Assembly (NCBI GenBank): GCA_018340375.1
Contig: JAFFJZ010000050.1
Span: forward strand, 744,001-808,000
DNA: 64,000 bases
Reading direction: 5' to 3'
Origin: Gonatopus flavifemur
Taxonomy: Eukaryota; Arthropoda; Insecta; Hymenoptera; Dryinidae
Below the pieces are notes generated by a model. It was not told the origin of the DNA and ran no database searches. It worked only from the letters and a program-made list of their open reading frames with translations. The translations under genes and the position numbers were made by a program. This document shows positions 6,241 to 64,000 of this stretch, piece by piece (positions within the stretch are counted from its first letter, which is position 1; each line of letters opens with the position of its first letter).

Positions 6241-7064
6241 TGAAAAATCAACAGAAATTCACGCGTTCAACGTAATGGGTCTTCCTATTGTTGACGGTGT
6301 TTCTTCTTATTTGAATGCAGTAATGCATATTGTACTGTGTTCCTAAGACAAAACAATTACTTCTATCTGACCCCAATGACATCATAAATATTTCAATTCA
6401 GAACTACAATTCGCAAAAAAACCTTGATATCATAGCTTTAAAACAGCTTGCAGGTCCACAATACTTGCATAATCACTCACAAGATGCAGGAGAATTCATC
6501 GCTTCTATTTGCGAGAATTCAATGGCTATTAAAAATTTAGTGAAGCACCAAATAACTCCCTTAACGGAATGTACGGAATGTGAATATACTGAAAATATTG
6601 TTGTTACAAATTGTGTTACACGTCTTGGGCTACCTCCAATTTCACAAAAATCATTTGAGTTTCAAGAAATATTCAAGTTCAATTTGTCAACATCGAAAAT
6701 ATCCGAAAATTCTTGTGACAATTGTAATAACTTGCATAAAACTGAAAAATCATTCATTAGAGCGTCAGAACAATATGTAATTGTGCAATTGATGATGTTC
6801 AATCACAATAATGTTGAAGCAACAAAGGTAGAAAATATAAACATCAAAGCAGTACCAACTTCAAAAATTATAATTGCACAACACTTTTATAAAGTTATAG
6901 CTGTTGTTTCTCATCAGGGTAAAAATATTTCTGAAGATAATTTCACATGCGTGTTACGAAGTGAAGGTACAAAGTGGATATTTATTCATGATCTGCAAGT
7001 TGAAGAGCGACATTGCCCACGCAATGCTAAAGATCCGTATATATATTTCTTTGAAAAGCAATAG
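6241..7064 (+). pseudogene. Decayed ubiquitin-specific-protease-like (USP, C19) frame
   Basis: The frame resembles a compact USP fold. Near 6275-6335 it reads GLPIVDGVSSYLNAVMH, matching the USP Cys box (G-NTCYLN-) but with Ser at the catalytic Cys position. A frameshift near 6335 is needed to join the main frame. QDAGEFIASIC near 6480-6510 matches the QDAxEF box. Two CxxC pairs follow (CTECEY and CDNCNN), like the USP zinc finger. The His box near 6945-6990 reads DNFTCVLR, where GHYT is usual, so the catalytic His is Asn. The frame ends at TAG 7062-7064. Catalytic Cys and His both appear lost. Whether it came from a host gene or a transposon cargo gene is unknown. Confidence 0.5.
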
Positions 7065-8394: not shown

Positions 8395-9640
8395 CTTCTT
8401 CAGATTTCTAGTACATATTGCATTATTAACGGGGAAATACTCATTCTTTACACTCATCGGTATCTAAATTATTCAAACTTGATGCAACATTGCAATAATT
8501 TATTCATTTTAATATTGATTATAAATGATTAACATGAAAAAATTCGCTTTTTTTGAAGAAAAATCGGTTTCTCCGGAATGAGAACAGTTGAGCCCCTGAA
8601 ATATCTTCTTACATACTCTGCATACATAGTTCTTTGACATATATTTCTGTCAAAATTTTCCGTAGATTAGTTTTTAAGGACAAAATTTTTGAAATTCCGG
8701 AAAATGAAATTTGTTCAGCCCTTTCAGAGATACATTTTTCTGTGATACTTATATCAATAACAGAATCACCCATAAGAATTTTTGGGGTTGCTGAATACAA
8801 ATTCAAGGTCAGATTTGGAAAATTCAAAATGGCGGATTCAATATGGCGGTCAAAATTTCCAAAAATTGACCGATTCCGGCCAAATTTTTATTCTAGGGGT
8901 TTTTGAGGTTGCAAAATAAGAATCTGAGGTCAGCTTTGCAGGATTAAAAATGGCGGATCCAATATGACGGACACAATTTCCAGAAAACTGACGGATTTTG
9001 ACTCAATCCTAATTCTAAGGGTTTTCGGGGTCATTGATTACGAATCCGCAGTTAGATTTTGAATCATACGCACCAGATGAGAATTTTTCAGTGCTTTCGT
9101 TTCTGCTCAGCAAAACGTAGAACTAACGATGTGGATATGGGATGGGAGTAGTTTCATTCTTTGTTAGTTCTTGTTGTGTGTTTTTTTTGTGGCTTTGTTT
9201 TCCTTTTACGTTATTTTGTGTTTCTTATTTTTCAATTTCCAATTCTCTCACCCAATCCCTTCCAGGGGCAGTGGGGCATCCACATTCTACCTATTTTGCT
9301 ACAGTTTTTCTCGTATTTCTAGTACATTTTGCACTATTCACGGGCAAATACGCATATTTCACAGTTATTGGTACCTAAGTTATTCAAGCCCCATGCAAAA
9401 TTGCAATAATTCACTCAATTTAATATTAGTTATGAATAATTAACCTGAGAAAGTCCGCATTTTTCTAAAGAAAAATCGATTCCTTCTTCATGAAATTAGT
9501 CGAGGCCCTGAAATTCTTTCGCATATTCTCCATACATAGTTGGTCGATACATGTTTTTATTAGAACTTTGGATCAATTGGTTTAGAAAAAAAATTGGAAA
9601 TCTCGGAAAATAAAGTTTGTTCAGAATTATTCATCATTTC
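8395..9640. repeat. Diverged direct duplication (8395-8730 and 9310-9640)
   Basis: The stretch around TTTCTAGTACATATTGCA (8405-8425) through the CATACATAGTT block (8618) reappears in the same orientation from about 9318 to 9545. Shared landmarks include GCAATAATTTATTCA/GCAATAATTCACTCA, AAGAAAAATCG and the CTCYRCATACATAGTT block. The copies are clearly diverged. Each is followed by more repeat-family sequence. Confidence 0.7.
8780..9060. repeat. ~122-bp minisatellite, two to three monomers
   Basis: AAAATGGCGGATTCAATATGG near 8827 and AAAATGGCGGATCCAATATG near 8947 are about 120 bases apart. Each is followed by a GGGTTTTYGRGGT block and an AATCYGMGGTCAGATTT-like block. The monomer is the same family as those at 10.0-10.9, 54.4-55.4, 58.9-59.7 and 63.0-63.8 kb. 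Confidence 0.8.
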
Positions 9641-10029: not shown

Positions 10030-10860
10030 CATAGTGAGCTACCGGGTCTACCATCTTGAATTTCGCAAATCCAACTTCAGATTTGTGATCGGTGGTTCCA
10101 AAGATCCCTATAATCAAAATTCCATCATAATCTACCATTTTCTCCCATATAGCACGAATCGCCTGGGGACGTCCTCAGGAGATCTTGGGGATATTGCACA
10201 GTCTCTAGGATATCCGGAGGACGTCACCACAAGGTTTGTGCTGGGTAAGCTGGAGAATGAATGTGCCATAATGATTCTGGCATCTTGAAGTTCGGGAACC
10301 TGACCTTAGATTCGTAATCCGCGACCCCGAAAATCCTTAGGGAACGAATTTGGTCAAAATCTGTCGAATTTTGAAGATTTAGTCCGCGTTTTCTGGATTC
10401 GCCATCCTGAATTTCGCAAATCTGACCTCAGATTCGTAATCCCCGACCCCGAAAACCCTTAGAGAACAAATTTGGTCAAAATTTGTCGAATTTTGGAAAA
10501 TGTCATCCGCCATATTGGATCTGCCATCTTGAATTTCGCGAATCTGACCTCAGATTCGTGATCCGCGACCGCGAAAACCCTGGGGATGAAAATTTGGTCG
10601 AAATCTGCCGAATTTTTGAAAATGTCATCCGCCATATTGGATCCGTCATCTTGAATTTTGCAAATCTCACCTGAGATTCGTAATCCGCGACCACGAAAAC
10701 TGTTGGAACCAAAATTTGATCCGAATCTGTTGAATTCTCGAAGATGTTATCCGCCATATTGGATACGTCATCTTGAATTTTGCAAATCTAACCTCAGATT
10801 CGTAATCAGCAACCCCAAAAACCTCCACAATCAATTTCATCAAAGCTGTGAGTATCATAG
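10030..10860. repeat. ~122-bp minisatellite array, CCGCCATATTGGAT orientation
   Basis: GCCATATTGGAT occurs near 10509, 10632 and 10754, a spacing of about 122 bases. Degraded units extend back to about 10040. Each monomer carries CCATCTTGAATTTCGC, CTGACCTCAGATTCGTAATC and CGCGACCNCGAAAACC blocks. This is the reverse orientation of the 8.8-kb copies. Confidence 0.85.
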
Positions 10861-13442: not shown

Positions 13443-14724
13443 TTAGGTGTACAAATAAGTTTCCGCGGTTTTTTATAAAAAATTAGGAATTTATTGTAAA
13501 GGAAAAGTACATTACGTTTTATTCAAAGTATTTTCCATCATTTGCCACTACTTTTCCCCATCTTTCTGGCAACATTCGGATACCCCGTCGAAAAAACTCT
13601 TCATCTTTTGACGCTATCCACAAATCTACCCAATTTTTGGTGTCTTCATTTGGTGAAGCGCTGCTCCGACAGACCATGTGCCATCGACCGGAACAGGTGA
13701 TAATCAGAAGGGGCTAAGTCTGGTGAATACGGCGGGTGGGGTAAAACTTCCCAGTTGAGTGTTTCCAAGTATGTTTTTACCGGCGCCGCAACATGTGGAC
13801 GAGCATTATCGTGTAAAAGAATAATTTTGTCGTGTCTGGAGTAGTAATGGGCGCGTTTTTCCTTAAGTGCCCGACTCAATCTCATCAATTGTGTTCGGTA
13901 GAGAGCTCCAGTAATGGTTTCGCTTGGTTTCAGCAATTCATAATACACGACACCAAGCTGATACCACCAAATACACAGCATGAGTTTTTTTCCATGAATA
14001 TTCGGCTTAGCTGTCGATGTTGATGGTTCGCCGGGCTTAACCCATGACTTTCTCTTCTTTGGATTATCGTAGTGAATCCATTTTTCGTCACCAGTGACTA
14101 TACGATGCAAAAAACTTTTTTTTATTCCTGGCAAGCAGCATTTCACTCATGCATAATCGGCGTTCAACGTCTTTCGGCTTTAGTTCATATGGAACCCAAT
14201 TTCCTTGTTTTTGAATCATTCCTAACGATTTTAAACGATGTGAAATTGCTTGTTGAGTCACTTGTAGAGTAAGTGCAAGTTCTTTTTGCGTTTGGGACGA
14301 ATCTTCCTCCAATAGTACTTCTAATTCCATGTCTTCGTACACTTTCGGCCTTCCACTGCGTTCTTTGTCTTTAACGTCAAACTCACCGTTCTTAAACTTT
14401 TGAAACCATTCCTGACAACTTCTCTCACTTAAAGCAGCTTCACCATATGCTTCTAGAAGCAATCGATGCGCCTCAGCTGCAGATTTTTTCACATTAAAGA
14501 AGTAAATCAGAAGTTCCCGCAAATGATGCTTATTTGGAATAAAACTTGACATTTTTGCACGAAAAAAATTACGTGATGCTGATACGGAATCACTAGTACT
14601 TTAAGGTTATGGTGTTGCCAGATGACTAAACTTGGGATATTACGTTTTACATCTGACAATTTCTCCATAACCTTCTGGTGGGGCCATCTTTTGACAAACC
14701 GCGGAAACTTATTTGTACACCTAA
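13443..14724 (-). mobile_element. Mos1-like mariner element, 1282 bp, full length
   Basis: The ends are inverted: TTAGGTGTACAAATAAGTTT, followed by CCGCGGTTT, at the left, and the exact reverse complement at the right, about 29 bases each. A TA dinucleotide flanks both sides (13441-13442 and 14725-14726), as expected for Tc1/mariner insertion. The length fits the mariner family (about 1.28-1.3 kb). The transposase is on the minus strand. It interrupts the spacer between the THAP exons and the 15.0-18.4 kb gene. Confidence 0.95.
13519..14552 (-). pseudogene. mariner (Mos1-type) transposase, two frameshifts
   Basis: The protein starts at ATG 14552 (MSSFIPNKHHLRELLIYFFN) with the paired helix-turn-helix region, including RSGRPKVYEDMELEVLLEED. 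The catalytic part has TGDEKWIHYDN (first Asp), LLHDNARPHVA (second Asp) and YSPDLAPSDYHLF (third Asp). The spacing between second and third is 34, the D34D hallmark of mariner. A frameshift lies in the A/T runs near 14105-14125, between the MLLARNKKK and KKSFLHRIV frames. A second is near 13646-13655 after EQRFTK, beyond which WIASKDEEFFRRGIRMLPER continues to a stop at 13519. All catalytic Asp are present, so the copy is inactive but young-looking. Confidence 0.93.
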
Positions 14725-21133: not shown

Positions 21134-24100
21134 GATCACGGACACAAGATTATAAGTATTTATTGACATATAATCTATCTCAAGATCATTTGAAAATTTT
21201 TTTTTCCAAAATCAGGTCTAGGCATGGATTCAATAATAACCCTAATGTGATGCAATTTCGAAGTGCCTTGAAGCAAATTCTAATGAAAAATAGGATGTTA
21301 GCTTCTTCTTCTGCCAATTGTTCAACTTTTGATAATGATCCTTTCGGTTCAGTATTTTCGATTCAATGGCCCAAACGTGCACACAGTGATCTCAGTCTTG
21401 ATAGTCCTGATGATTATGATGCAACAGGTACCTCCTTAAACATGGAGGATAATATTACGTTACCTGACATTGAACCTGAATTAAAAGATTATATCCTTCA
21501 CTACATCTCCGGGTATGTGGTTCGCACGATGTTGAATGTTGTTCACTGTAACTCATGTACTGAATCGTTAATTGCAGAGAAAAGTGGACGCTGTTACTCT
21601 CATAATTCCATTTATTCGAAATTCACTGATTTGGTGAATAATGGAGGACTGATTATAACCTCCGTAAACTTAGCCCCCGATTTTACCGAAGAAATTTTTT
21701 TTTATGCGAAACGTTTGTACCCCGTTTGTACCTGTTGTACCATACTTTTTTCGTTTGTACCTCAAAATTAAGGGCGAAAAATCGGTTTTGAAAAGTTGGC
21801 CCCCGATGCATCCGATTTGGGTGATCGACCTCTCATTTGAAAGAGGATCGGCCCTAGATGATTGTACCACCATTTATTTCGTTGAAGGGTCATATTACAA
21901 TTTATTACACTGGAATCATGAGAGACTGATGAGTATTCATCTGACATTCATACTGACCAAGACCTTGGGATATAAGCCAGAATTCTGACCACACTGTCAT
22001 CGAACCAGAGTGAGGCCCAAATGATTCCCGGAATGATTACAGATTGCATGAATCTGGCGAACTTTGGAATGGAGGTAAGTGGATTGTTATGTGTACTCCA
22101 AGAGAGATCCCAACGTTGGTGACACCGAGGATTCGTCTCTGGGCCCAATTCTGGTGAGGCCCCGGATTGATTCTGGAGGAAATTCATTGGTACCTCCGAG
22201 ATCTTTGCGGAGGCTATTTCCATGAATGGAAACTAGTTTTTAGGGCCCGAATGAAAAGCCCGTATGGGCCTTTGAATACTTAAAAAGCGTATAACTTTGA
22301 CGAATTTCGGAATTTCGGGACGTGTATTTCTATGCTCACTCTAGGGGAGGGCACATCGTTCGTAACGCCAAGGATTTTCCCCTCCGGCCCAATCCTGATG
22401 GGGCCCCTGAATTAATTTCCGACAAAATTCGTTTGTACCTCCGGAATCTGTGCGGGGGCTATTCCCATGGATGGGAACTGGTCCGAAACAATTTTTGGAG
22501 TTTTTTAGGGCCCCAATAAAAAGCCCATATGGGCCTTTGAATACTTGTAAAGCGTATAACTTTGACGAATTTCGGAATTTCGGGACGTGGATTTTTATGC
22601 TCACTCTAGGGGAGGTCCCAACGTTCGTACCGTCAAGGATTTTCCCCTGGCCCAATCCTGATGGGGCCCCCGAATTGATTTTCGACAAAATTCGTTTGTA
22701 CCTCCGAGATCTTTGCGGGGCTATTCCCATGGATGGAAACTGGTCCGAAACAATTTTTCGATTTCCTTAGGAACCCAATGAAAAGCCCATATAGGCTTAG
22801 AGTAGGCATAGAAATCCACGTCCCCAAATTCCGAAATTCGTCGAAGTTATACGCTTCTTAAGTATTCAAAGGCCCATATGGGCTTTCTATTGAGGCCCTA
22901 AAAAGGATAAGAAAATTGTTTCGGACTAGTTTCCATCCATGGAAATGGCCCCCGCAAAGATCTCGGAGGTACAAACGAATTTTGTCGAAAATTATTTTAG
23001 GGGCCCTATCAGGATTGGGCCCAGGGGCAAAATCCTTGGCGATACAAACGATGGGACCTCCCCCAGAGTGAGCATAAAAATCCACGTCCCGAAATTCCGA
23101 AATTCGTCAAATTTATACGCTTTTCAAGTGTTCAAAGGCCCATACGGGCTTCTTATTGGGGCCCTAAACGAAATTAAAAAATTGTTTCGGACTAGTTCAC
23201 ATCCATGGAAATAGCACCCACAAAGATCTCGGAGGTACCAATGAATTTCCTCCAGAATCAATTCGGGGCCTCACCAGAATTGGGCCCAGAGACAAATCCT
23301 CGGTGTCATCAACGTTGGGATCTCTCTTGGAGTACACGTAACAATCCACCTACCTCTATTCCAAAGCTCACCAGATTCATGCAATCTGTAATCATTCCGG
23401 GAATCATTTGGGCCTCACTCTAGTTCGATGACAGTGTGGTCAGAATTCTGGCTTATATCCCAAGGTCTTGCTCAGTATGAATGTCAGATGAATACTCATC
23501 AGTCTCTCATAATTCCAGTGTAATAAATTGTAATATGACCCTTCAAAATCTTTTGGGACCCAAAACTCCCAATTCTTGGGGCCCCTTATAAAAATAATTT
23601 GTGGTACAATCAAGTAGAGCCCATCTCCTTCCCAATGAGCCATCGATCATCAAAATCGGGCGAATCGGGGGGCTAACTGAAAAATGGCCCTCACTGGGCC
23701 CCCGCAGGGGTACAAACGAAATAAATGGTGGTACAATCATCTAGGGCCGATCCTCTTCCAGATAAGAGGTTGATCATCCAAATCGGATGCATCGGGGGGC
23801 CAACTTTTCAAAACCGACTTTTCGCCCTTAATTTTGAGGTCCAAACGAGGAAAAGTGTGGTACAATCAGGTACAAACGGGGTACAAACGTTTCGCATGAA
23901 AAAAAAAATTTTTCGGTAAAATCGGGGGCTAAGTTCACGGAGGTCTGATTATACCATCTCAGAGTGTACTGAATATCATTATATTTACTGAAGAAGAAAT
24001 TTGCATACAAACCAACAACTTCAAAGAATTGTCTGTGAATGATCTTGATAATAAGATATTTCCAAATTCGATTTGTGAAACTTTGCATCTGGAAGAATCG

Positions 24101-37904: not shown

Positions 37905-40612
37905 CTAATTTCCAAATCTAGATTTAAATTGTACAGGTCCGAATAAAAGCACTCTCCTAACTGGTCTACCGGGGATGTTGAAATTGACTTTACTCAGCGA
38001 TGACTCGCAATCAAGACAACCATTAATCAATTTCAAAAGAAATAGGAGATCATTCATTTGTCTCCGCTCTTCGAGGGTAGTCAAATTCATTCTGTGAAGA
38101 ATTCTGGAGTAATCATGGTCAGAATATCTCATAGGGCAGCCTATTCTGAGAGCAGCAAAGCGTAAAAACTTGTGTTGCACACTCTCAATCATTCTAATAT
38201 CCGTCTTCAAGTGCGGAGACCAGATAGGGGACGCATATTCAAGATGGGGTCCAATTGAAGAGGAATATAGTACTTTTAATGACCTAAGATCTTTGAAATC
38301 ACTAGAAAATTTGACGGAGCCGAGATTTCTCAGCGCAGTACCACAAGCTTTCACAGAATGCTCAGAAAAATCCGGTTCATGATTTATAGTTACACCAAGA
38401 TCAACATAAGATTCAACAGTATCCAATGTAACATTTACAATCTTGTAGGAGAATATGAGAGGATTCCTTGACCGCGAGATTCTCATTACACAGCGGTTTT
38501 CTGAGTTCAGATGCAGAGAATTACGGGTGCACCAAGAATCTAATCTCGATGATACTGACTGTAAGTGATGAACATCCGCAAGCCATTTTATGTTCTTGTA
38601 GATTTTTAGATCATCGGCAAATACCAGGGAATCACAATCATTAAGGACCTGCCCAATGTCTTTTATGGATAGCAGAAATAAAAGTGGACCCAGGTGGGAT
38701 CCCTGGGGCACTCTCGAAGAAGGTATAATCGGTTCAGAGAAACAGTTCCGAACTTCAACCATCTGCACCCGATCAGTTGAGTAACTCTGGAACCAAAGTT
38801 TCAGATTACCAGATATCCCAAAGCTACGCAACTTAGATAGAAGAACGCTGTGAGATATATTATCAAACGCTTTACTGGAATCAGTGTAAATAACATCCAC
38901 TTGTGAGTTATTCTCCAGCGCAATGGCGGTGTGATTACAGAAAGCAGCCAAATTCGTAGTAGTAGACCTCATTGACATGGAACCATGTTGTTCCGGGATA
39001 ATAAGAGGAGACAACAAAGAAGTAATCTTGTCAACAACCACGCGCTCAAAAATCTTAGACATCACATTTAAACTACTTATAGGTCTATAATTCTTAGCAT
39101 CCAGTTTATTACCATGCTTGAAAATAGGGGAGATCAGGCTCGTTTTCAATTCAGCAGGGGAACATCCGGAAGAAAGAGTTTCAATCAAGATAATCCAAAG
39201 CGGTCAAGAAAGAATGAATTTGCAAGACTTGAACAGCAACGGCGGGAGGCCATCAAATCCTGGGCCCCTGCTCGTATCTAACGAATCAAGAACAGAGTAG
39301 ATCTCTCCTATGGTAGTAGCCAAATTAGAAAGCATGTTAAATGACATATCATGTCTGGAATGGTTAACATTGACCGAGTTATGTGGAGCAAAAACCGATG
39401 GAAAGTGATCAGCAAAAAGGTTAGCCATTCCAGCTGCAGAGTCAGCAACTACATCATTTAACATGATAGTACTAGGTAAGTCATTAAATGAACGCTTACT
39501 GTTAACAAAATTCCAAAAAGATTTGACATCCTTTTGAATATTAGTCTCACCTTGGCAAATGTAATTCGAATAACAAGCCCGAGCTCGTGATTCACATTGA
39601 GCACGCTAAAAAGAGAACGCTAAATAATCGCCGCGATTATAAGACGGTTTGTAAATCATATGGGCAACTTTCTTTCTTCTAATTGATTTTTTGAGCTCAG
39701 GAGTAGACCAAAGAGGATAAATGGATCTTTTGATCAATGTTTTCGGACCGTACAACTCAATAGCCACAGAAAGTTGATCATACAAAAAACTAATAGCAGT
39801 ATTCACATCCATGCATTTTAACTCCAAATCCCAATCAATTCGATTCAAATGCTGCTGTATAGAAAAAGATCAGCCAATTTATAATTATACCGGTACGTGC
39901 CGATACAAGACAAAGATCTCAATGAAAGAGAAAGAGAATACAATTTAATTTCAATAGGGGGATGATAAGCATCACAATGTAGGAGGTAATCAACCGGACT
40001 AATAGTTTCGACATACTCATCAGTGGTACAAATCAAGTCCAGCATACCATTGAAATCATTGTGAATATTGTTTTTTTGATATAAACCGAAGTAGTTGAAA
40101 TATTGAGTCAAAATCTCCACCGAAGACCTTTCATTCAGTGTCACACCAGGACGAAACGATGCCGTTAGAGAAGTGTCATCATTGCGCCAAACCACATGCG
40201 GAAGATTGTAGTCACCGCAGAGGAAAATTGGAGAATCATAATCCTGACACAGTACCTCGGCCAGAGAGACACAATGTTCAAGGTAAAGAGATGATGATGA
40301 GGCAGGGGGGAAGTAACTTGCTCCAATGAGAACAGACTTCGAATTAAACTGCAACTTGACAAGAATATGTTCCACGTTAGTAGGCGGCAAATCAACCAAT
40401 GCACTATTCAAATACTTTTTGACCGCAATCAGCACATCACCTTCTCGAGAAAAAACACTGGTGCGCCTGCTCCTGTCCAACCGATACAAGACATAATCAT
40501 TGAAGGACAATTCTTCATCAGATATGTTATCCGTTAACCAGGTTTCAGAGAAGATAATGACATCATACGTAGAAGTAAGAGATGAAAGTGAAATTTGCAA
40601 ATCTTGGAGTTT
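37905..40612 (-). pseudogene. Non-LTR ORF2: APE endonuclease plus reverse transcriptase, broken
   Basis: The 5' part (40612-39845) is an APE-type endonuclease with KLQDLQISLSS, IIFSETWL, GDYNLPHVVW and a late HCDAYHPPI (SDH-like) motif. The middle (39848-39204) includes PLWSTPELKKSIRRKK and RGPGFDGLPPLLFK. The reverse transcriptase (39188-37905) shows NYRPISSLNVMSKIFE, SRVPQGSHLGPLLF and FADDLKIY at the catalytic site, and it ends SRFGN. Breaks occur near 39845, 39605, between 39464 and 39204, and near 39190, so several frameshifts or stops prevent full-length translation. One finger motif reads TDSSKAFD, where DFSKAFD is common. FADD is intact. Confidence 0.9.
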
Positions 40613-40640
40613 AGCGTGTTAACAATCGTTGGCAATCCAT

Positions 40641-41408
40641 TCATATACTTGATTGTTTGTTGATATCACCACCATCGATCAGATTCTTGAGTTCCGCACG
40701 TAACGTGGTTAAATAATTTCTCTCTTGAACAGTTCGATCTTGATAAATCTTAAACGGTCCATTGTGATTAGATTTACGTTTCAGGATATTTATAACATCC
40801 CGAGACGATGGAAAAGAAACACAAATAGGTCTGTGTTTGTTCGCAACCTTTTTACCGATTCTATGCAACCTAATATTATCATGAACGGAAGGACTAATGT
40901 TTCGGAACAGTGTTTTCACCTTCGCTGTATCATTTTGCTGTTGATTGTCCGGCGTCTCATCAATACCAACAATAATAATACCTTGAGATCGCTTCTGTCG
41001 CTCGTTGACTTCATGAATAATCGTTTCAAGATCACGAGAATCGCGGTCCTGTTTTGGAACGTCGAGTTTGTTCTCAACTTCAGTCAATCTCGCAGTGAGG
41101 GAAAGAATAGTTTGACTAAGATAAACTATTTTGTCCTCGTAAACCCGAGCCATTCCATCACGAAATTTCGAAAATTCTTCATGAATGAGCTCCTTTATAT
41201 TCATCAGCAGAAACGAGTCTTCTGGCGAAGATGAATCAATTCGATGTGAAGAAGCATCTGAACAATCGATGAGTTTGTTCACACTCCACGGATGATTACA
41301 TCTGTGCACACATCCTGGATGCGAATGAATATCACACGTATGACAGCTCACAGGATGAGAGACAGGTTCAGTACAACCTTCACAGATTTTCTTATCTTGT
41401 TGTGACAT
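40641..41408 (-). CDS. Non-LTR retrotransposon ORF1 protein (zinc finger, coiled coil, RRM-like)
   Basis: An uninterrupted 255-residue frame from ATG 41408. Residues about 9-37 form a PHD/treble-clef-like cluster (CEGC, CHTC, HPGC, HRC). Residues about 75-115 (EFSKFRDGMARVYEDKIVYL and following) are predicted coiled coil by heptad look. Residues about 140-225 (GIIIVGIDETPDN, IRLHRIGKK, RPICVSFPSSRDV) resemble the RRM/C-terminal nucleic-acid-binding part of L1/CR1-type ORF1 proteins. Its likely job is RNA binding in the retrotransposition particle. It precedes ORF2 on the same strand by only about 30-40 bases. It is the only open protein of this element. Confidence 0.75.
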   Translation of the reverse strand: MSQQDKKICEGCTEPVSHPVSCHTCDIHSHPGCVHRCNHPWSVNKLIDCSDASSHRIDSSSPEDSFLLMNIKELIHEEFSKFRDGMARVYEDKIVYLSQTILSLTARLTEVENKLDVPKQDRDSRDLETIIHEVNERQKRSQGIIIVGIDETPDNQQQNDTAKVKTLFRNISPSVHDNIRLHRIGKKVANKHRPICVSFPSSRDVINILKRKSNHNGPFKIYQDRTVQERNYLTTLRAELKNLIDGGDINKQSSI

Positions 41409-44400
41409 TTTTGATATATGGAAAGATCAAAACGTACAGCAGATGATAATCACTGGTACTAGTAACACACAACACACATACATTCATCGTTAAATAACTT
41501 TGCTTGTACCTCTGTAACTTTCTTCACATTTTCCGAACTATTTTTATTTGCATTACGACACCATTTCCTCTAGAAATCTTTATGCATCAAAGCAACACCA
41601 GAAATTCCAACCATAAAGCACTCCGTGCTTTCGAACTATGTCGATATGACCTCAGGATACCTCGGTATCTCGGGGTGGATCGTGATAGGTACGTAGTCAT
41701 CTAGGTGTATTCCGCGCTCTCGAACTATGTCGATATGACCTCGAGATGCCTTGGTATCTCGGGGTAGATCGTGATAGGTACGTTGCCATCTAGGTGTATC
41801 CCGCGCTTTCGAACTATGTCGATATGATCTCCAGATACCTCGGTATCTCGGGGTAGATCGTGATAGGTACGTAGTCATCTAGGGGTATTTCGAGGTGATT
41901 CTGATAGGTAGATCGGAACACTGGCGCATTCTCATGTAAAGTTGATTATCTCGTTAGTTTGAGATAGATGTCGGTGAGTAGATCGTCATCAGGCAGCGTA
42001 CCGCTGTCTGCCGCGAGCATGCGTAGTATATCTATATTTACATTGTATACATAGAAATACTATGCACTCTCGTGGCAGACAGCGCTACGACGATCCCTCA
42101 TCGTCATGCCTGAATATACCGAGTTGACGTCGAATAAAATACGTGTACGCAAGGAATATTAGGCCCGTTATAAATGAGAAGGAATACCGAGGAACACAGA
42201 CGCGGAATTGTTCTCTGTGCGAAAAACTTCCTTGAAAATCTTGGAAGATTTCTCTGAATTTCTCTTCAAATCACTGAAAATCTCTTATGAAGTATGAATA
42301 GCTCTGAAATCCTCGGAGAAACTTTTCATTGAAAATGTCTGAAATTCTCAGAGATTTTGAGTGAAATTTTTTCACTAGGGTAACGTGTTGATTGAGAATT
42401 CAAATCGAATTCAAAGTATTTATAATGAATTCATTTTTACTGTCACAACTGAACTCTCATGCTATCTAGGATAAAGCTTTGTAAGAATGGAAATATGATT
42501 CAACTTGAATGAAACCACAGGAGAGATTGAACTTCGAAAGAGATCATTTTAGAATAAACGGTATTTCCAGTCCCTTCAGTCGAACTGACCTGTAGTGATT
42601 CTACGTATCATCATCTGTGATGGTAATCTCATTTATAACACATATATTATATTTCGAAACATCCTTACCCTTTATTCTTCATTAAATATTTGTATTTTTC
42701 ATCCTGTTCATTCCCAGATCAGTATCACTGATAATAAATATCTAGCTCAGACAAAAAAATATTTGTCACTATCTGGAAGAGTTCCACTGGATATCTTCAG
42801 GATGTCTTATGCAGAAGTTGTCACTATCTTCAAGATATCTCCGATAAGTAATCTCAAATGCGCCTAAAAGAGATCAAAAGACATTTTTTAGTCTTCGCAA
42901 ACGAAGATATCTTGAAGATAGTGAAAACTGTAATATAAGACGTCTGTAAGATCCATCCATTGATGAACATTGAACATATATAACAATATTGTGATTATAG
43001 AAATGGTTGTAGAATAATTACAGTGCATGTTAACTTATGTGACTGAGAGATACGATTTATTCTAACATGTTCTCCCCAAAAGTTTCATCTTTTCAAATGT
43101 TCCATTCTACCTGGATTATATTTCCATTCCCATAAACCTTCATTCTCATTTCAAATTATCTTTGTTGCCAAAGAATTGAATTCTTAAATATTATGAATAT
43201 TAAATATATTTCTTCTCACATCGTTATGCCTAAATATGTGACCGGGATGAAAATAATCTTATTCACTAGCGAATTTTTCTTCCCATTCCAACATATATTT
43301 CAAAATAAGGATCTGTGAGAATAGAAAAAGAGAAAGAAAAGAAGCAAAAAGGAAAAAGGTCGAAGAAAGATATTTCATATTCATACCATTTAGGAATTCA
43401 GTTCTGTGAGAACAAAGATAATGCTGCTATCAGATTTTCACAGTAGAATCACAGTTGGACAACCAACAAGGAGAGATGAAGTAGTAGAAAACCATAGAGA
43501 TATGTACATTACTTATAATCACTATCAACTTCATCAGGTGATGTCGTCAACGAATAGAGAAATGGCACAAGTGCAGTGGATGTACCAAAAATCCTTGCGA
43601 TAGGTATTCTGCTATCAGATGCTTCCAGAAGAATCACAGGGAGACGAACAACAAGCGAAAAAGAAGCAGATTTACCATGAATCTGTACGCTAGCTACCAT
43701 CACTATCAAATTGATTGGATGTGGTTGTGAGCAAATGAAGACTAGTCAGCAGCGCAGCAAATATCCTTCCATCGGGCACACTTCACAAACCCACTGACAA
43801 ATAATCAAGCAGATCATTCAGAATCAATTTAATGAAAATTGAACCCATGCGCCATAGAAATCAATATAAATGATTTTGATTATAGGAATTGTTGTAAAAT
43901 CACTATAGTTCATCTCAACTTATGTGATTGAAGATATGATTCATTCTAAAATGTTCTCTCCAAAAGTTTTATATTTTCAATTGTTCCATTCAACCTGAAT
44001 CATATTTCTATTTCTATGAACCTTCATTCTTATTCGAAACTATCCTTGTTCTCAAAGAATTGAATTCTCAAATATTATGAATCCTAAATATCCTCCCTCT
44101 CTTATATTTCCATTCTCACAGATCCTTATTGTTAAATGTATGTTGAAATGAAGAGACATAAGACATATTTAGGCATAACGATGTAAGTGTGTAAACATGT
44201 CAGGAGAAATATATTTATTATTCATAATATTGAAGAATTGATTTCTTTGAGAACAAGGATAATTTTAAATGAGAATGAAGGTTTATAGAAGCACAAATAT
44301 CATCCAGGTTGAATGGAATAACTGGAAAGATGAAATTTTTGGAGAGAACATGTTAGGATGGATCGTATCCCCATTAACATAAGTCAGGATGAACTATAGT

Positions 44401-54218: not shown

Positions 54219-55515
54219 TTCGAAGATAGAGATCTGGGAGACCAATCAAAATTTTCGTTGAAGTGTCTACTTTTCATTGCCGTATGGTGTTTTTTGAACG
54301 TGGCGGCCATTTCGCCATTATGGCGGCTGAAACGAAGGGGAAACGTGTTGAGAATAATCAAAACCAGTCCTCGGAATATGATACGTGGGTGTTGGATAGC
54401 ATGTAATTCGAGCCTCCCGGATTAATTGCATGCGGTCGGAATACTGGAATTGCAAATGGCGGATCCAATATGGCGGCCGGAAATTCAAAATTGCTTCGAA
54501 TTTTTCCAATCATGTGGAAAGGGGGTTCTTTGGGTCGCTGATGACAAATCCGAACTCAAATTCCCGGAATTACAAATGGCGGATCCAATATGGCGGTTGG
54601 GAAAATGATAAATCTCTTGAATTTGTGCAAACATTGTCATACTGAGGTTTCTGGGGTCGCGGAATAAGCATCCAAACCCAGATTTCTGGAATTGTCAATG
54701 GTGAATCCAATATGGCGGCAGGGAATTGAAATATTGCTTCGAATTTTCTGAAAGATTGGGGAAGGAGGTTTCTTGGGTCACCGATGACGAATCCAAACTC
54801 AGATTCCCGGAACTACAAATGGCGGATCCAATATGGCGGTCAAGAAAATTATGGATCTCTTGGATTTGTGCCATCATTGTCATACTGAGGTTTTTGGGGT
54901 CGCGGAACAAGAATCCGAACCCAGATTTACGGAATTGCAAATAGCGAATCCAATATGGCGGCCGAAAATTAAAATATCGCCTCGAATTCTCTGAAACATT
55001 GGGGAAGGGGGTTTTTCGGGTCGCTGATGACGAATCTGAACTCAGATTTCCGGAATTACAAATAGCGGATTCAACATGGCGCTCGGAAGAATTATAAATC
55101 GCTCGAATTCGTGGAAACATTGTCATACTGAGGTTTTTGGGGTCGTTGATCAGGAATCTGGACTTGGAATTCCTAAATAGCGAATGAGTAATCCAATACG
55201 GCGGTCGGAAGAATTATCAATGTCTCGAATTTGTGGAAACGATGTCATACTGAGATTTTCGGGGTCGCTGATAGATTTTCGAATCCGGATTTTCGGAATT
55301 ATGAATGGAAGATTCGGTATGACGGTCTGGATATGAGAAATCATCCGTCCTCTGACGTGAATCTTTGTCCCGAGGAAGTTCTGGTCGTTCATTATGAACC
55401 TGAGGTCAGATTCCGGAAACCAGAACGAACGCACCACGTTCAATGATCCGCAAGCACATTTGATATGATGGAAACGAATATTATATTAATTTCAGGAATC
55501 ATTTGGGGTCTGGTC
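54219..55515. repeat. Left arm of large inverted repeat with ~121-bp minisatellite
   Basis: Reverse complement of about 62935-64000. The outermost match visible is the TTCGAA at 54219-54224 pairing with the window's last bases, so the right arm continues beyond the window. At 54450-55430 the arm is an array of ~121-base monomers: ATGGCGGATCCAATATGGCGG cores or variants occur near 54456, 54575, 54697, 54818, 54940 and 55060. Confidence 0.88.
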
Positions 55516-55544: not shown

Positions 55545-55549
55545 CCTCC
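55545..55549. other. Transib target-site duplication, left copy (CCTCC)
   Basis: CCTCC directly precedes the CACAGTG terminus and is repeated directly after the other terminus at 59720-59724. A GC-rich 5-bp duplication is characteristic of Transib insertion. Confidence 0.9.
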
Positions 55550-55588
55550 CACAGTGGTCGTTTTTCCCAATCTAGCTGGACAAAAGTC
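55550..55588 (+). promoter_or_regulatory. Transib left terminus, RSS-like (heptamer-23-nonamer)
   Basis: CACAGTG (55550-55556), a 23-base spacer (55557-55579), then ACAAAAGTC (55580-55588). The last matches the RSS nonamer ACAAAAACC at 7 of 9 positions. Expected to be the transposase recognition and cleavage site. Confidence 0.8.
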
Positions 55589-56615
55589 CTAAAATCAAAG
55601 TCTTCCAATGGATTAAATGAACATTCGTATGTCATTTAGGATAGTTGTGAACACGATAAAATCGATGATCAACAGTCAGAAGTTTGCTCATCATGTCCAA
55701 ATGTGCATGTTTCAATCACTCATTTTTGCGTTTGTTCGTTCTCGGTTTTTCAATGAAAAAAGTCTACATTGTGTTTTACCTAATACGCGTCGAAAAATGA
55801 TTCAAGTGGTATGCTATCATGAGTAGTGAAAATACATTGTCTTTAACATAATTTTCATGGTGGAAGTGGGGAAATTAGTTTGATTCTTTCCTCGTTCATC
55901 ATATAGTGAACCCATTTATACCTTTACTGAAATAACATAATTTCAACTTTAATGGACTATAACTTTCCCTATCCGGCCTTATCCGACAAACGGGAAAAAG
56001 GAGTCGAAAGTGTGAACAATTCTGAATCGTTTCGTTCGAATTCCAAGTGCGTCCAAGTGCGTCTCAGGATTTGGTGAATGTTTTTCCAAATTATCTCTGT
56101 CCTCGCTTGTCCTTTCGCCAATTCGTTTGATTTCATTAGCCACATTTTATTCTGTATGCAATACATTTTTTTTCTTAAATTGGAATTTCTTACAGACAAA
56201 TGATTTTCAATGATATTTGAGTGATAAAATTGATTAGGTATCACTTTCTTTTAGAATACTGACGTTTTGTCTCTTGGTTTGGCTCCGGTATCGCTCTGTC
56301 AATGTGTTTTCCCTTATAATTCCTATATGTTCGTTATTGTGGACCTCATATAATAAAAATGCATGAATTTCATAATGATTTGGAGTTTGTCAAGCATTCG
56401 GCCTGAAGTTAGCAACAACCGACGACTGGACGAGAGTACACTTTTGTTTTATTTGTTAGTGACGCGACTGTCCTATCTTAAGAAGTTGTAATTTCTGAAC
56501 TTTCGGTATAATCACTGTATTGTCAATCCTGGTACGTTGTAATTCGCAAGAAATAATCTGTTCATTGTTTTTTTCAATATTTCAGTATATATTCCCATTC
56601 CGTTCTATCAGAATA

Positions 56616-58649
56616 ATGTCTATCACCAAGAGAGAGCTGTTTGATGTGTGGTATTCCGAAAGAGAGGCGTCCAAGAAATTTGATGCAATGTTGCGATATG
56701 TGAAAGGAAAAACGTCAGTGTCGGGAAACTCAACCCATGTTTCTGAATGTGTACTGCAAATGATAAACAATTTTCTGAGCCATTTGCGGGACAAATGGAA
56801 AAAGTGCTATCGGTCGAAACAAAAATTCGAACAACGTTTTTCTGAATGGCTAGATTCAACGATCAAGTTGTTTCCTGAACCAAGTGGTCAACAGAGCTCT
56901 ATAGGAAGACCGTCCAAAGAATTCCAGAATTTGAGTGAGAAATCGAAAAAAAGAAGAATCCAAAACTTGCTGGATAATCATACTACAGAAGAATTCACGT
57001 TCGCAGCTTGCTCGAATTCGTATACTACTGGTAAAAGAGACGCATCTTCAGTTTTAAAAAATATTACAGAAAGCTCTCCCACCAGAGCAACAAAAATCAA
57101 ACGTGCATTTGATACCCCAAATGTGAAACCAGAAACTTATTCACCCGAAGAAGGTCTTGCTTTGTATATAGATGGTCGTTTCTCCAAAGATAGCTACATC
57201 CTGATGCAACAAGGAGCTAAAAATCGGAAAGCCAATATATATCCAAGTTATGAAAACATCTTGGTGGCAAAAAAAGAGTGTTATCCACCAAACAACAGTA
57301 TAAGTATCACAGAATTTTCAGCAGAAATTCGACTTCAAGCCATAGTGGATTATACGTCATCAAGATTATGCCTCGCCTTGAAAGATATTTTAGAAAGCGT
57401 ATGTGGAAATTCACAATCAGATCTTGTTTCATTGTATAAATGGGGAGCTGATGGAAGTGAGGGACAATCTATGTATAAAATTCGTATTCAAAATGAGGAA
57501 GACCGTGAAAGAACAGACGGGAATCTATATGTAGTTTGCATTGTGCCTCTTCGATTACAAACGAAAGATGGAAATACCATAATCTGGAATAATCGTCGGG
57601 CTTCGTCTACGAGATTTTGCCGACCAGTGAAACTCATTTTTGAAAAGAAAACCCCTGATTTAATTCGAGAAGAAATTCCGGGAATAGAAAGTCAGATCGA
57701 AGGGCTTTCTCCGACTATAGTTACCCTAGACAACATCACAGCAAAAATTGACCATCAGTTAATGCTAACTATGATCGATGGCAAAACCTCCAGCACGATC
57801 ACAGAGGCATCGGTTCAAACATGTAGTATTTGCAAAGTCACTCCTAAACTGATGAACAATCTCTCTTTCGTTTATGAGAGAGAGTGTGATGAGACTAGAT
57901 ACCATCTGGGCCTTTCATCTCTCCATGCATACATAAGATGCCTCGACTGTATGCTTCACATTGCATATCGCATTAATATAAAGAAGTACCGGATAACAGA
58001 AGAACAGGACAAGCAAATTTTAGAGGATAATAAAAAACGTATCACTAAGGCGATTCGGCAGGAAATGGGATTGTTAGTTGACGTTGTGAAACAAGGTTAC
58101 GGAACAACTAATGACGGAAATACCGCAGCTCGATTCTTTGAGAATTTTTCAACGGCTGCTCAAATAACAGGACTTGACGGAAATTTATTGAAGAGGTTCA
58201 ACGTAATATTGAAAACCATATCAAGTGGATTTGATATTGACGTTGAGAGATTTCCTCTGTACGCCAGAGAAACAGCGGATTCATACGTGAAGTTGTATTC
58301 GTGGTACCATATGCCTTCTAGTGTGCATAGGTTACTGATTCATGGTGGGGAGATAATAAGTTCTTGTGCATCGCCTATAGGTATGATGTCAGAAGAAGCT
58401 TTAGAGGCCAGGAACAAAGATATCAGAAGATACCGAGAATCCAACACGAGAAAAATGTCTCGGCATCAGAACATGGAAGATTTGTCACACACTTTGCTGT
58501 ATTCCTCTGACCCTCACATTTCTATCTTGTCTAATCGTGATAATAGGATATCTCAATTCAAAACCTGCAAACCGTTACCTGTGGAAGTGTTGAATTTACT
58601 GCGTGAACCTGATATTGGACAATCACATGCTTCTCCAACATCTGAATGA
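56616..58649 (+). CDS. Transib transposase (RAG1-core homologue), apparently intact
   Basis: An uninterrupted frame of 709 codons opens at 56520; the likely start is ATG 56616 (codon 33), giving 677 residues (MSITKRELFD). Cut-and-paste DDE transposase that should bind the CACAGTG termini. Using the 709-codon numbering, alignment by eye to RAG1 gives first Asp D311 in KWGADGSEGQ (RAG1 D600), second Asp D420 in LTMIDGKTSS (D708), and Glu E629 in SEEALEARNKDIRRYR (E962). Zinc ligands C435 and C438 (CSIC; RAG1 C727, C730) and H603, H608 (VHRLLIH; H937, H942) are present. LHIAYRINIKKY, NTAARFFEN and SDPHIS are Transib-typical. An AATAAA signal lies at 58736-58741. A 54-base intron (56532-56585) may precede the start codon. 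No defect was seen, so it may be active or recently active. Confidence 0.93.
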   Translation: MSITKRELFDVWYSEREASKKFDAMLRYVKGKTSVSGNSTHVSECVLQMINNFLSHLRDKWKKCYRSKQKFEQRFSEWLDSTIKLFPEPSGQQSSIGRPSKEFQNLSEKSKKRRIQNLLDNHTTEEFTFAACSNSYTTGKRDASSVLKNITESSPTRATKIKRAFDTPNVKPETYSPEEGLALYIDGRFSKDSYILMQQGAKNRKANIYPSYENILVAKKECYPPNNSISITEFSAEIRLQAIVDYTSSRLCLALKDILESVCGNSQSDLVSLYKWGADGSEGQSMYKIRIQNEEDRERTDGNLYVVCIVPLRLQTKDGNTIIWNNRRASSTRFCRPVKLIFEKKTPDLIREEIPGIESQIEGLSPTIVTLDNITAKIDHQLMLTMIDGKTSSTITEASVQTCSICKVTPKLMNNLSFVYERECDETRYHLGLSSLHAYIRCLDCMLHIAYRINIKKYRITEEQDKQILEDNKKRITKAIRQEMGLLVDVVKQGYGTTNDGNTAARFFENFSTAAQITGLDGNLLKRFNVILKTISSGFDIDVERFPLYARETADSYVKLYSWYHMPSSVHRLLIHGGEIISSCASPIGMMSEEALEARNKDIRRYRESNTRKMSRHQNMEDLSHTLLYSSDPHISILSNRDNRISQFKTCKPLPVEVLNLLREPDIGQSHASPTSE

Positions 58650-58735
58650 GGAATAAATGAGAGTTGATTTTTGAGGCATTTGGAAATTTCACCAGTTTTT
58701 TGTAAGTTGCTGCTTCACCTTCGAGATTGATGTTC

Positions 58736-58741
58736 AATAAA
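58736..58741 (+). terminator. Polyadenylation signal AATAAA of the Transib gene
   Basis: AATAAA lies about 87 bases after the TGA of the transposase. Position and sequence suit a 3' end signal. Confidence 0.5.
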
Positions 58742-58984
58742 TTACTCCTTATTCGGAAGTGAATTAAAGATTCCATTTCGCTTTCTTTCTGTTCATCATT
58801 TCTATTTATCGCTGTGAGGATTGATAATGAGTGAATATTTGTTCTTTTGAGAGTTTCCACGCAAAGTTGGAAGAAGAAACAAGTGTTTCAACGATGAAAA
58901 TTGGGATAATAACAGTGATTCGAACAATGAGGTATGTAGAACCCTAGTGTGGCGCTTCTGTTTCATTTAGATGGTGTGGTATCC

Positions 58985-59690
58985 TTGAGTTGCAAAATTC
59001 TGAGTCCAGATTGAATTTATGCGACCCCAAAACCCCCTGATAGTAAGTTTCAAGCGGATATCAACCGTTTTTGAATTTGTGTCCGCCATATTGAAACCGC
59101 CATGTTGAATTTCGGATTTCTGACTCCACATTTGGATCCTGCGACCCCAAGAACCTTGCCATTAGTGAGTTTCAAACGGATATCAACGATTTTCGGATTT
59201 TTGTCCACCATATTGAATCCGCCATTTCGAATTTCGGATTTCACACTCCAGATTCGAATTCTGCGACCCCATAAACTCCTTGAAAGTGAGTTTCAAGCGG
59301 ATATCAACCATTTCTTTCCATTTTTGTCCGCCATATTGAATCCGCCATTCTGAATTCCGGGATTCTGAGTCCAGATTTGGATTCCGTGACCCCAGAAACC
59401 CCCAAGTACTAAGTATCAAGCAGATATCAACCATTTTTCATTTTTTGTCCGCCATATTGAATCCGCCATTTTGAATTCCGGAATTCTGAGTCCAGATTTG
59501 GATTCTGTGACCCCAAAAACCCTCAGGTACTAAGTTTCAAGCAGATATCAATCATTTTTGAATTCTTGTCCGCCATATTGAATCCGCCATTCTGAATTAC
59601 GGAGTTCTGACTCCAGATTCGGATTCTGCGACCCCAAAAACCCCCTGATATCGAGTTTCGAGCGAATATGGTAGAGTTTCGAATTCTGTC
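58985..59690. repeat. ~122-bp minisatellite inside the Transib 3' region
   Basis: CCGCCATATTGAAWCCGCC or variants occur near 59086, 59208, 59330, 59452 and 59573, about 122 bases apart. Each is followed by TTCGGATTTCTGACTCCA-type and GACCCCAAAAACC-type blocks. The same monomer is found outside the element in several places. Confidence 0.88.
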
Positions 59691-59719
59691 CACCTAGATT
59701 GGGAAAAACGACCACTGTG
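59681..59719 (-). promoter_or_regulatory. Transib right terminus, RSS-like
   Basis: Read on the minus strand from 59719: CACAGTG, a 23-base spacer, then ACAGAATTC, which matches ACAAAAACC at 6 of 9 positions, weaker than the left end. CCTCC follows on the plus strand at 59720-59724. Confidence 0.75.
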
Positions 59720-59949
59720 CCTCCCAATGGAACTCCTTGCAAATCTTCCTCGAACCAAACCATGAATACTGCTGGTTTTTGACTTGTGAATTTGTGTATT
59801 CAGGCTCCAAGCTGTCGGCATTAGCATAACCCAATGTGCACCACGAGGAGGTTGCGCGATCAGACTTTGCACATCGAGTGGCCCTGAAAAGGGCCGTTGA
59901 TTGTCACATGTCTCTCAATTAACAAGTTTGCAACCACGCGTGCATTACC

Positions 59950-61858
59950 TCATGGTTGTCCATTTGGCCACCATACTCTGTTTTGTTCATCGTTAGAGTA
60001 CCTTTTGATGAGCACCTCATTATCGGATCCTATCAAAAACCCATGGTTTCTCAGAATCTCAGGTACAGGTTGGGCATTTTCGAATCGTTTGTTGAGTTTC
60101 CGTCTCATCTTTTCGTGGAATACTTTATCATAGTACATGATGCTTATGGTGTCAAAATGACTCTTCGCCCAGCTGTAGAGTTTTTGTGGCGTCAATATAG
60201 CATTTTGAGGTTTGGCAGTCATACTCGCTCTGTATGCTCCTCTTTTGAAAGTAGCACCGATCCCGTCACAAGCACCTTTACCATGAGCAGTTGCACTGTG
60301 ATGCCATTCAGCGTCAATATTGAAATTTTCTTTGTGATGAACTAAATTCGCGATTTGAAATTTATTTTCGAAGTGCTGCTTTGCTCCGTCACTGGTATGG
60401 ATAATCTTATTCACTTTCTTCACATTGCGTTGAACTCCACGAATTAACGAGGTCTGGATAGCATAAACAGCGGAAGTGTCGTGTTTTAAACTCCCAGATA
60501 AGAATACATAACTCTTGTGCTCAACATCGCGCCCTCCCTTATAATAATAAATGGCAGGGAACACAGTGCATTGGTCGTTATCGAAATGAAATGCTTGTGA
60601 GGCATCCTGGCAGACATATGCGTAGTTCTCAGAAAAATCGAACGTAACCAGTACTTCACCATCGCGAAGATTGTGTTTTCGTTCTTGGATGAAAAGCCTC
60701 TGTTGCTTAGAGATGGATGAATGAGGTTTGAGGATTGTCAGTTTTTTACACAATTCAAGTATAAAATCATCAATTTTCATCACTTCTGTTTGTAGAGTTG
60801 AACGATCCGTTGCTGTCCAAACTGAATATTGAATATCTGTGATGAATGAATTCTCCAGTAGATTATGTAATTTCTCCGAAGACTGAAACTCCTGGACAGT
60901 CATCACATGCGTCTAGATAACAGTCAGCGGGCGGTCTCTCACAAACAATTTCATTGAGGCAGTCTTTGTAATTAGTTAGTGGCTTTTGTGTATCCAACGT
61001 CAGCTTTTGAATATCAATTGCATCCAACATCAATTTCGGATTTTGATGTATTGTGCAAACACAAACTGAATGTAGTCCACAAGCCCCAGGGAGTATGCAA
61101 TTTTTTGGTCTCAGTTGAGCGAACGCGCTGAAGCATATAATATGTTCTGGGTGAGACTGTTTGAATACGGTATAAAGTTCTTTCAAACCCATCAGTAAGA
61201 GACGTTTCTGTTTCAGCGTTCGCTCTCCATCAATTTCCACAGGAACGACATCTTTCGATGCAGGCGTTATCCTGCTTTTCATGTCCCTTGTATAAAATCC
61301 ATATACTTTTTCTGAAGTTGTTTGACAGAGTTTTCTCCCCTCCCTTGCAATACTATCGGGTAAAATGCCAGCTTTCATCCTCAATTCCTTTGATTTGTTG
61401 GCGAAATATCGCGTTGTAACAAATTCTTGGGCGATTTTCCTCGCACTCCAAGATGATGAGGCGATAGTTAAAATTTGTAATTTCAATGGATTGTTGGGTT
61501 CCAAGGTTGAAAATTTCTCCTTGAGCTCATCCAGCATTCCTTCCCGTTCAATTTCTCTGTTCGTGCGTGTATCATTGAGACCTTCGTGTGTCTCATTCTC
61601 CAATTGAACATCCATTCTCATAGAACTCTCAATACTACAAATATTTTGACCGCTATCATTTGATTCATGAACCACATCGTCATTTTGTAATTTGTCCGAT
61701 GAACCCTCTTTTATATATGCAGCACAAATCCTCGAATTCGCGCATAAGTCAGGAAATTGCTGTAACATAACCTCCGATATCTTTCGTAAATTTCTACTGA
61801 CGTACCCGGCAGTTTTAAACGGATTCGCACATCGGTCCGTTCGAAGAATTCGCGGCAT
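59950..61858 (-). pseudogene. DDE-type transposase of an arthropod/cnidarian family, one frameshift
   Basis: The N-terminal frame (61858-60863) starts MPRILRTDRCANPFKTAGYV and contains EKVYGFYTRDMKSRI and LRPKNCILPGACGLHSVCVC, then LDACDDCPGV. The C-terminal frame (60906-59950) continues QEFQSSEKLHNLLENSF and has the catalytic-type motifs VTFDFSENYAYVCQDASQ, IHTSDGAKQHFENKF and AEWHHSATAHGKGACDGIG, ending WWPNGQP. I recognise this set (DFxENYxxxxQD, SDGAxxxxKN, HGKGxCDGIGG) from many uncharacterised transposon proteins. The frames overlap at 60863-60906 and one frameshift near 60890 separates them. Otherwise it looks complete and young. The Transib lies just beyond its 3' side. Confidence 0.75.
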
Positions 61859-62384
61859 CGTGTATTAGATGATCAAATTAATCAGATGAAAATATACGGA
61901 CTCCTAGTACGATTTTATAAGTTAAAACACAAAAACTTCGAGGTTTGAACGTCGCGAACATTCATAAAGTAACAATGTAAAACGATGAATAACAGGAGAC
62001 GAGAAAAACAATTGACGTTACAATGAAACCACATGAAATTAGATGCAGAGATTACTGAACAATACACTGTCAGTTGATAAGAATCGATTTCACGCATTTA
62101 TTCGTTTATTTTCAGCTGATTCATTCGACATCCTGATATACGAAGCCGCGAATTCTTCAAAAAAGCCAATGATTCATTGACTCAAAACAGCCGCACACAA
62201 CGGTAGAAATTCGCGAAAGATATCGGAGGTTAACTTACAGGAATTTCCTGACTCATACGCGAATTCCAGAATTCAAGCTGCATGTATGGAAGAAGGTTCA
62301 TCGTACAAATTACGAGATGACAAGGTGGTTGATGAATTGAATGATAGAGGTGGAAATATTGAAAGTATCGAGAGTTCGATTGTC
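61859..62384. other. Spacer upstream of the minus-strand transposase
   Basis: AT-rich, no gene recognised. It would contain the promoter of the minus-strand transposase and the junction to its inverted partial copy, but no element stood out. Confidence 0.4.
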
Positions 62385-62930: not shown

Positions 62931-62934
62931 TGAT

Positions 62935-64000
62935 CAGGCCCCAAATAATTCTTGAAATCGATATAATATTTGATCCCATCATATGAAATGTGCTTGCGGA
63001 TCATTGAACGTGGTGCGTCCGTTCTGGTTCCCGGAATCCGACCTCAGGTTCATAATGAACGACCAGAACTCCCTCGGGACAAAGATTCACGTCAGAGGAC
63101 GGATGATTACTCATATCCAGACCGTTATACCGAATCTTCCATTCATAATTCCGAAAATCCGGATTCGAAAATCTATCAGCGACCCCAAAAATCTCAGTAT
63201 GACATTGTTTCCACAAATTCAAGAGATTAATAATTCTCCTGACCGCCATATTGGATTACCCATTCGCTATTCCAGAAATTCGAGTCCGGATTCTTGATCA
63301 GTGACCCCAAAAACTTCAGTATGCCAATGTTTCCGCAAATTTAAGCGATGTATGATTCTTCCGAGCGCCATATTGGATCCGCTATTCGTAATTCCGGAAA
63401 TCTAAGTTTGGATCCGTCATCAGCGACCCACAAAACCTCCTTTTCCAATGTTTCAGAAAATTCGAAACGATATTTGAATTTCCGGCCGCCATGTTGGATT
63501 CGCTATTCGCAATTCCAGGAATCTGGGTTTGCATTCTTGTTCCGCGACCCCAAAGACCTCAGTATGACAATTTTTGCACAAATCCGAGGGATTCATAATT
63601 TTTCCGACCGCCATATTGGATCCGCCATTTGTAATTCCGGAAATCTGAGTTCGGGTTCGTCATCAGCGACCCGGGAAACCCCCTTTCCGCATGTTTGAAA
63701 AAATTCGGAGGAATTTTGAATTCCCGGCCGCCATATTGGATCCGTCATTCGCAATTTCAGTATTCCAACCGCATACAATTGATCCGGGAGGCTCGAATTA
63801 CATGCCTTGATCCACAGAACAATCCAACACCCACGAATCGTATTTGCAGGACTGGTTTTGATCATTCTCAACGAGTTCCCCCTTCGTTTCAGCCGCCATA
63901 TTGGCGAAATGACCGCCATGTTCGAAAAACACCATACGGCAATGAAAAGTAGACACTTCAACGAAAATTTTGATTGGTCTCCGAGATCTCTATCTTCGAA
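62935..64000. repeat. Right arm of large inverted repeat with ~121-bp minisatellite
   Basis: Reverse complement of 54219-55515, continuing past the window end. From about 63010 to 63790 it is a minisatellite with CCGCCATATTGGATCCGCC cores or variants near 63243, 63366, 63487, 63606 and 63728. The arms differ by scattered substitutions. Confidence 0.88.

Follow-up and report, generated by a model that had tools for sequence, protein, structure and literature searches.

A structurally complete Transib cut-and-paste transposon of the autonomous type occupies positions 55550..59719 of a 64,000-nucleotide stretch of Gonatopus flavifemur DNA (hereafter the window; all coordinates count from window position 1). 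We regard this identification, together with the mechanism proposed below and leaving aside present activity, as close to certain. The sequence itself supplies RSS-like ends (RSS, recombination signal sequence), a target site duplication (TSD), an intact single-gene transposase, and a predicted fold and active site of the HzTransib type.

Element ends and target site

The element opens with the C of the heptamer CACAGTG at position 55550 and closes with the inverted copy of the heptamer at position 59719. Inverted-repeat comparison delimits a 39-bp terminal inverted repeat (TIR) at the 5′ end (55550..55588, plus strand) and its partner at the 3′ end (59681..59719, minus strand); the pair is 92% complementary, and its outermost 26 bp are identical. 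Immediately outside the heptamers, CCTCC can be read directly at 55545..55549 and again at 59720..59724. The element thus has the 5-bp TSD of the Transib superfamily on both sides, and TIRs that begin with an RSS-heptamer-like sequence at both ends. Transib TSDs are typically 5 bp long (PMC4411706). A 17-bp end sequence finds exact matches in the window at the two element ends only, and with up to three mismatches it finds one further match, at position 17089, where 0.24 would be expected by chance. The first-pass annotation, made from the sequence alone, had proposed these coordinates, termini and duplication and had called the element a structurally complete Transib; the heptamers and flanking CCTCC copies bear out the former, and the ends, TSD, homology and predicted fold support the latter.

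Each heptamer (55550..55556 and 59713..59719) is separated by a 23-bp spacer (55557..55579 at the 5′ end) from a nonamer-like stretch, ACAAAAGTC at 55580..55588 and ACAGAATTC at 59681..59689. Against the RSS nonamer consensus ACAAAAACC, the 5′ stretch matches at 7/9 positions and the 3′ stretch at 6/9. In a scan of spacers from 0 to 40 bp, 23 bp gives the top nonamer score at each end, the runners-up being 6 at a spacer of 31 (left end) and 5 (right end); the scores at the two ends are not independent, as most of the stretch is common to both. Among all 9-mers of the element, 0.3% reach a score of 7 and 1.7% one of 6. Transib ends are known to be RSS-like, with symmetric spacers of 20–22 bp in some elements and 12/23-asymmetric spacers in others (PMC8355894).

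Transposase, active site and proposed mechanism

The transposase is a 677-aa protein encoded in a single open reading frame (ORF) at 56616..58649 on the plus strand, assigned by the ORF, homology and predicted fold, and the uninterrupted frame of 677 codons is just as first annotated. The longest stop-to-stop frame of the element has 716 codons, whereas 300 base shuffles of the element gave none longer than 169. Comparison with 67 aligned relatives favours a start at the ATG: 43 of them likewise start at window residue 1, and in 56 fewer than ten residues precede it; the alignments of six start only beyond the first 59 residues. The ORF is preceded by a leader 1066 bp long, with a GC content of 35%. 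Downstream, the previously noted candidate poly(A) signal AATAAA was located by motif search at 58736..58741 (plus strand), with further candidates at 58652 (AATAAA) and 58763 (ATTAAA).

The best relatives of the transposase are 48–50% identical to it. DNA relatives of the element were found in neither viral_contigs nor genome_contigs. No observation speaks against Transib membership; the Pfam RAG1 model itself is matched at 18.5 bits, below its cut-off of 25. Pfam PF26100 is precomputed for many of the relatives, and our own Pfam scan of the window protein did not list it. Two Pfam domains of unknown function and, in the PDB, a TPR protein also gave weak matches, which were attributed to chance.

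The protein has the predicted fold and active site of HzTransib, that is, a Transib-type transposase with a RAG1-like core. Specifically, D279, D388 and E597 align to HzTransib chain positions 109, 208 and 419, which a constant offset of 17 turns into D126, D225 and E436, the HzTransib triad (PMC6941560). The window protein therefore carries the equivalent DDE triad. Among the 67 relatives, D279 is kept in 67, D388 in 63 (N in the other four) and E597 in 66 (a gap in one). The zinc ligands are equally stable, with C403 kept in 67 and C406, H571 and H576 each in 66. H437, the presumed counterpart of RAG1 H795, is conserved in 67/67, and residues 377–579 align to HzTransib without gaps save for one residue. 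The first-pass annotation had picked out the same catalytic residues and zinc ligands as D311/D420/E629, C435/C438 and H603/H608; their identity holds, and their numbering, which belongs to a 709-codon reading and runs 32 higher than from the ATG, does not. The concern raised there, that an alignment might move these residues elsewhere, was not borne out by the HzTransib alignment, which keeps them in place.

By analogy with HzTransib and RAG, a transposase dimer would bring the two CACAGTG ends together and place a nick 5′ of each heptamer. A hairpin would then form on the flanking DNA, setting free a blunt-ended element, and joining of this element into a 5-bp target would yield the CCTCC duplication. 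The element encodes no RAG2-like partner.

The RAG1-type fold and RSS-like ends would also suit a RAG1L-RAG2L (ProtoRAG-type) transposon in which RAG2L has been lost or is hidden. We give this reading hardly any weight. Outside the transposase no stop-to-stop frame of the element exceeds 109 codons, so that a single protein is encoded, and no RAG2L gene was found beside the transposase as a second gene-sized frame, a gene split into short exons not having been searched for. In addition, the match to HzTransib is far stronger than that to RAG1 or RAG1L, and a motif search for CTT1 (C..C...GH....C), a feature of RAG1L and Transib Subgroup I (PMC9435367), finds none in the window protein.

The N-terminal region of the transposase weakly resembles the nonamer-binding domain (NBD) of RAG1. 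There, the relatives' alignment and a weak profile similarity to the RAG1 domain mark a GRP motif at residues 97–99 (56904..56912, plus strand), with G97 conserved in 56/67 relatives, R98 in 59/67 and P99 in 55/67. This motif fits the NBD equivalent with GRP published for Transibs (PMC9435367). Direct comparison with RAG1 gives a weak HMMER alignment of 1.7 bits, and hhalign against a RAG1 segment, run without a shuffle control, is likewise weak (probability 10–16%, P 0.0005–0.003). The most far-reaching proposal would be a Transib that still functions and whose ends are both recognised as bipartite 23-RSS-like signals, each made up of a heptamer and of a nonamer that the GRP/NBD-like region reads. 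An ancestral mode of V(D)J signal recognition, with neither RAG2 nor the 12/23 rule, would thereby be kept. We consider this unlikely.

Present activity and surroundings

Complete ends, an open frame, a conserved active site and a strongly constrained lineage point to activity. The window transposase keeps 103 of 112 conserved columns, although its terminal branch has a length of 0.54 changes per site. We put the present ability of this copy to transpose, for which the first-pass annotation had made it a candidate, at somewhat below even.

Several observations weigh against such activity. The transposase departs from its relatives at nine of the 112 conserved columns, where about 4.6 departures are expected from a linear fit to all 68 sequences, the window sequence included (Poisson P 0.04). 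It ranks 62nd of 68 in agreement at conserved columns and 12th of 68 once departures are scaled to branch length. Two departures, Q289I and E345K, replace residues invariant in 67/67 relatives, and a third, R505A, replaces a residue that is R in 61/67 and A in none. Of the remainder, G180, I243, D444, Y458 and R572 (five of the nine) are each present in at least one relative, while F127, like A505, is absent from the relatives and stands at a position where they vary. This excess hints at some loss of constraint. Furthermore, apart from the three-mismatch match at 17089, neither the TIR search nor tblastn finds a second copy in the window; beyond its own locus, the transposase gives only two tblastn matches, both with E above 6. 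DNA relatives of the element were found in neither viral_contigs nor genome_contigs.

The same departures could mark a copy that inserted recently and is already dead, whole and with its frame kept open through short time, in which one or more missense changes abolish activity; this rival concerns activity and not identity. A neutral copy with divergence below roughly 1–4% could keep its frame open, the limit being about 3.9% for substitutions only and about 1.3% with an assumed 0.1 indels per substitution. However, the excess is only about two-fold, the departures may be changes that this diverged lineage (best relatives 48–50% identical) tolerates, and the catalytic and zinc residues are all intact. 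A dead copy is a serious prospect, if one slightly short of an even chance.

The Transib is nested within another repeat. Its left flank (54219–55515) is an inverted copy of 62932–64000, 82–92% identical by segment, and the match runs to the window end. Together with two further inverted pairs (60356–60901/62378–62921 and 61620–61898/62103–62380), it makes up a long, imperfect palindrome that surrounds the Transib. The left arm of this palindrome holds, at 59950–61864 on the minus strand, two overlapping frames of 317–320 and 333 aa, neither with a Pfam match above cut-off. They look like one broken gene, apparently of the repeat into which the Transib inserted. No unoccupied site is seen in the window; the paralogue of the left flank is diverged, and its homology ends 34 bp before the insertion point. 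An intact single open frame within such a repeat-rich region could also be expected of a Transib-derived domesticated host gene that is no longer a mobile element. This is very improbable: the 26 identical terminal bases and the perfect 5-bp TSD remain, though host selection would need neither, and the Transib sits inside another repeat.

The 3′ part of the Transib contains a tandem array of about 5–6 units of a 122-bp satellite (58985..59678, plus strand, about 0.7 kb), recognised by repeat search and unit tree. Arrays of this family also lie at 1998–2617 (130-bp units) and, with 122-bp units, at 8776–9059, 10265–10827, 54446–55268 and 63175–63756, so that they stand beside or inside different repeats: both outer palindrome arms, the 8.8-kb, 10.3-kb and 2.0–2.6-kb sites, and the Transib. 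When units selected with a short core pattern were placed in a tree, the five taken from the Transib formed a clade of their own (support 0.95), as did the 2.0-kb units. Units of the 54-kb and 63-kb arrays are intermingled, for the most part in matching order, and the 8.8-kb and 10.3-kb units are intermingled too. Recent copying of the Transib array from the flanking array was ruled out by its separate clade and by units that are 79% alike internally versus 58–60% to the other five arrays. The array probably expanded inside the element, starting from an old unit common to the arrays.

Elsewhere in the window, a Mos1-like mariner transposase (13649–14600, minus strand) is split over two frames. 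The annotated claim that nearly every other transposase in the window is broken stands for the neighbours examined, this mariner and the split gene at 59950–61864. A frame at 6324–7064, in a repeat-rich region, has a ubiquitin carboxyl-terminal hydrolase domain (E 6e-8), and a fragment at 21136–21771 matches the TNP-like RNase H C-terminal domain (E 1e-15) and is possibly a P-element-type remnant. Two pairs of tandem arrays have consensus units that look mutually reverse-complementary by eye: 4253–4833/5725–6144 (179/180-bp units) and 37187–37372/41622–41889 (89-bp units), the latter flanking LINE-like (long interspersed nuclear element-like) frames at 37905–41426. A search with a LINE fragment gave 2512 relatives; among the 120 listed, those with names come from several insect orders (Callosobruchus, Rhynocoris, Nesidiocoris, Photinus, Loxostege, Lygus, Tribolium), at about 38–43% identity.

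Relation to known systems

An animal genome typically holds a single autonomous Transib copy or a few at most (PMC4411706). Because they are so few, an intact Transib whose ends are strongly RSS-like lends itself as a test case of DNA-end recognition in the RAG1 lineage, and if active it could also be put to use in gene transfer. Since good descriptions of the family, of its ends and of its relationship to RAG1 already exist, the window element adds a member and not a principle. It is a real, intact Transib with clean RSS-like ends, valuable as material and no surprise.

The nearest solved system is HzTransib of Helicoverpa zea (PDB 6pqn, 6pqx and others), with which the window protein has in common its fold, its catalytic triad and a zinc-binding domain without a large insertion, at about 41% identity over 476 aligned residues. 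It differs by about 170 extra N-terminal residues relative to the solved chain, and the element differs by the satellite array in its 3′ region. With Transib Subgroup II of Tao et al. 2022 (PMC9435367), it has in common symmetric TIRs, which that subgroup allows, an HzTransib-like zinc domain without a RAG2-binding insertion, the lack of CTT1, and the GRP of the NBD-like region, a likeness drawn from motifs and similarity to HzTransib alone.

Transibs share their cutting enzyme and DNA end signals with the vertebrate antibody-gene recombinase. Compared with vertebrate RAG1 and amphioxus RAG1L, the window element has the same RNase H-type core, DDE triad, C2/H2 zinc site, CACAGTG heptamer and 23-bp spacer, at 15–17% identity over the aligned core, but it has no RAG2 partner, and its spacers are 23 bp at both ends rather than 12 and 23 bp.
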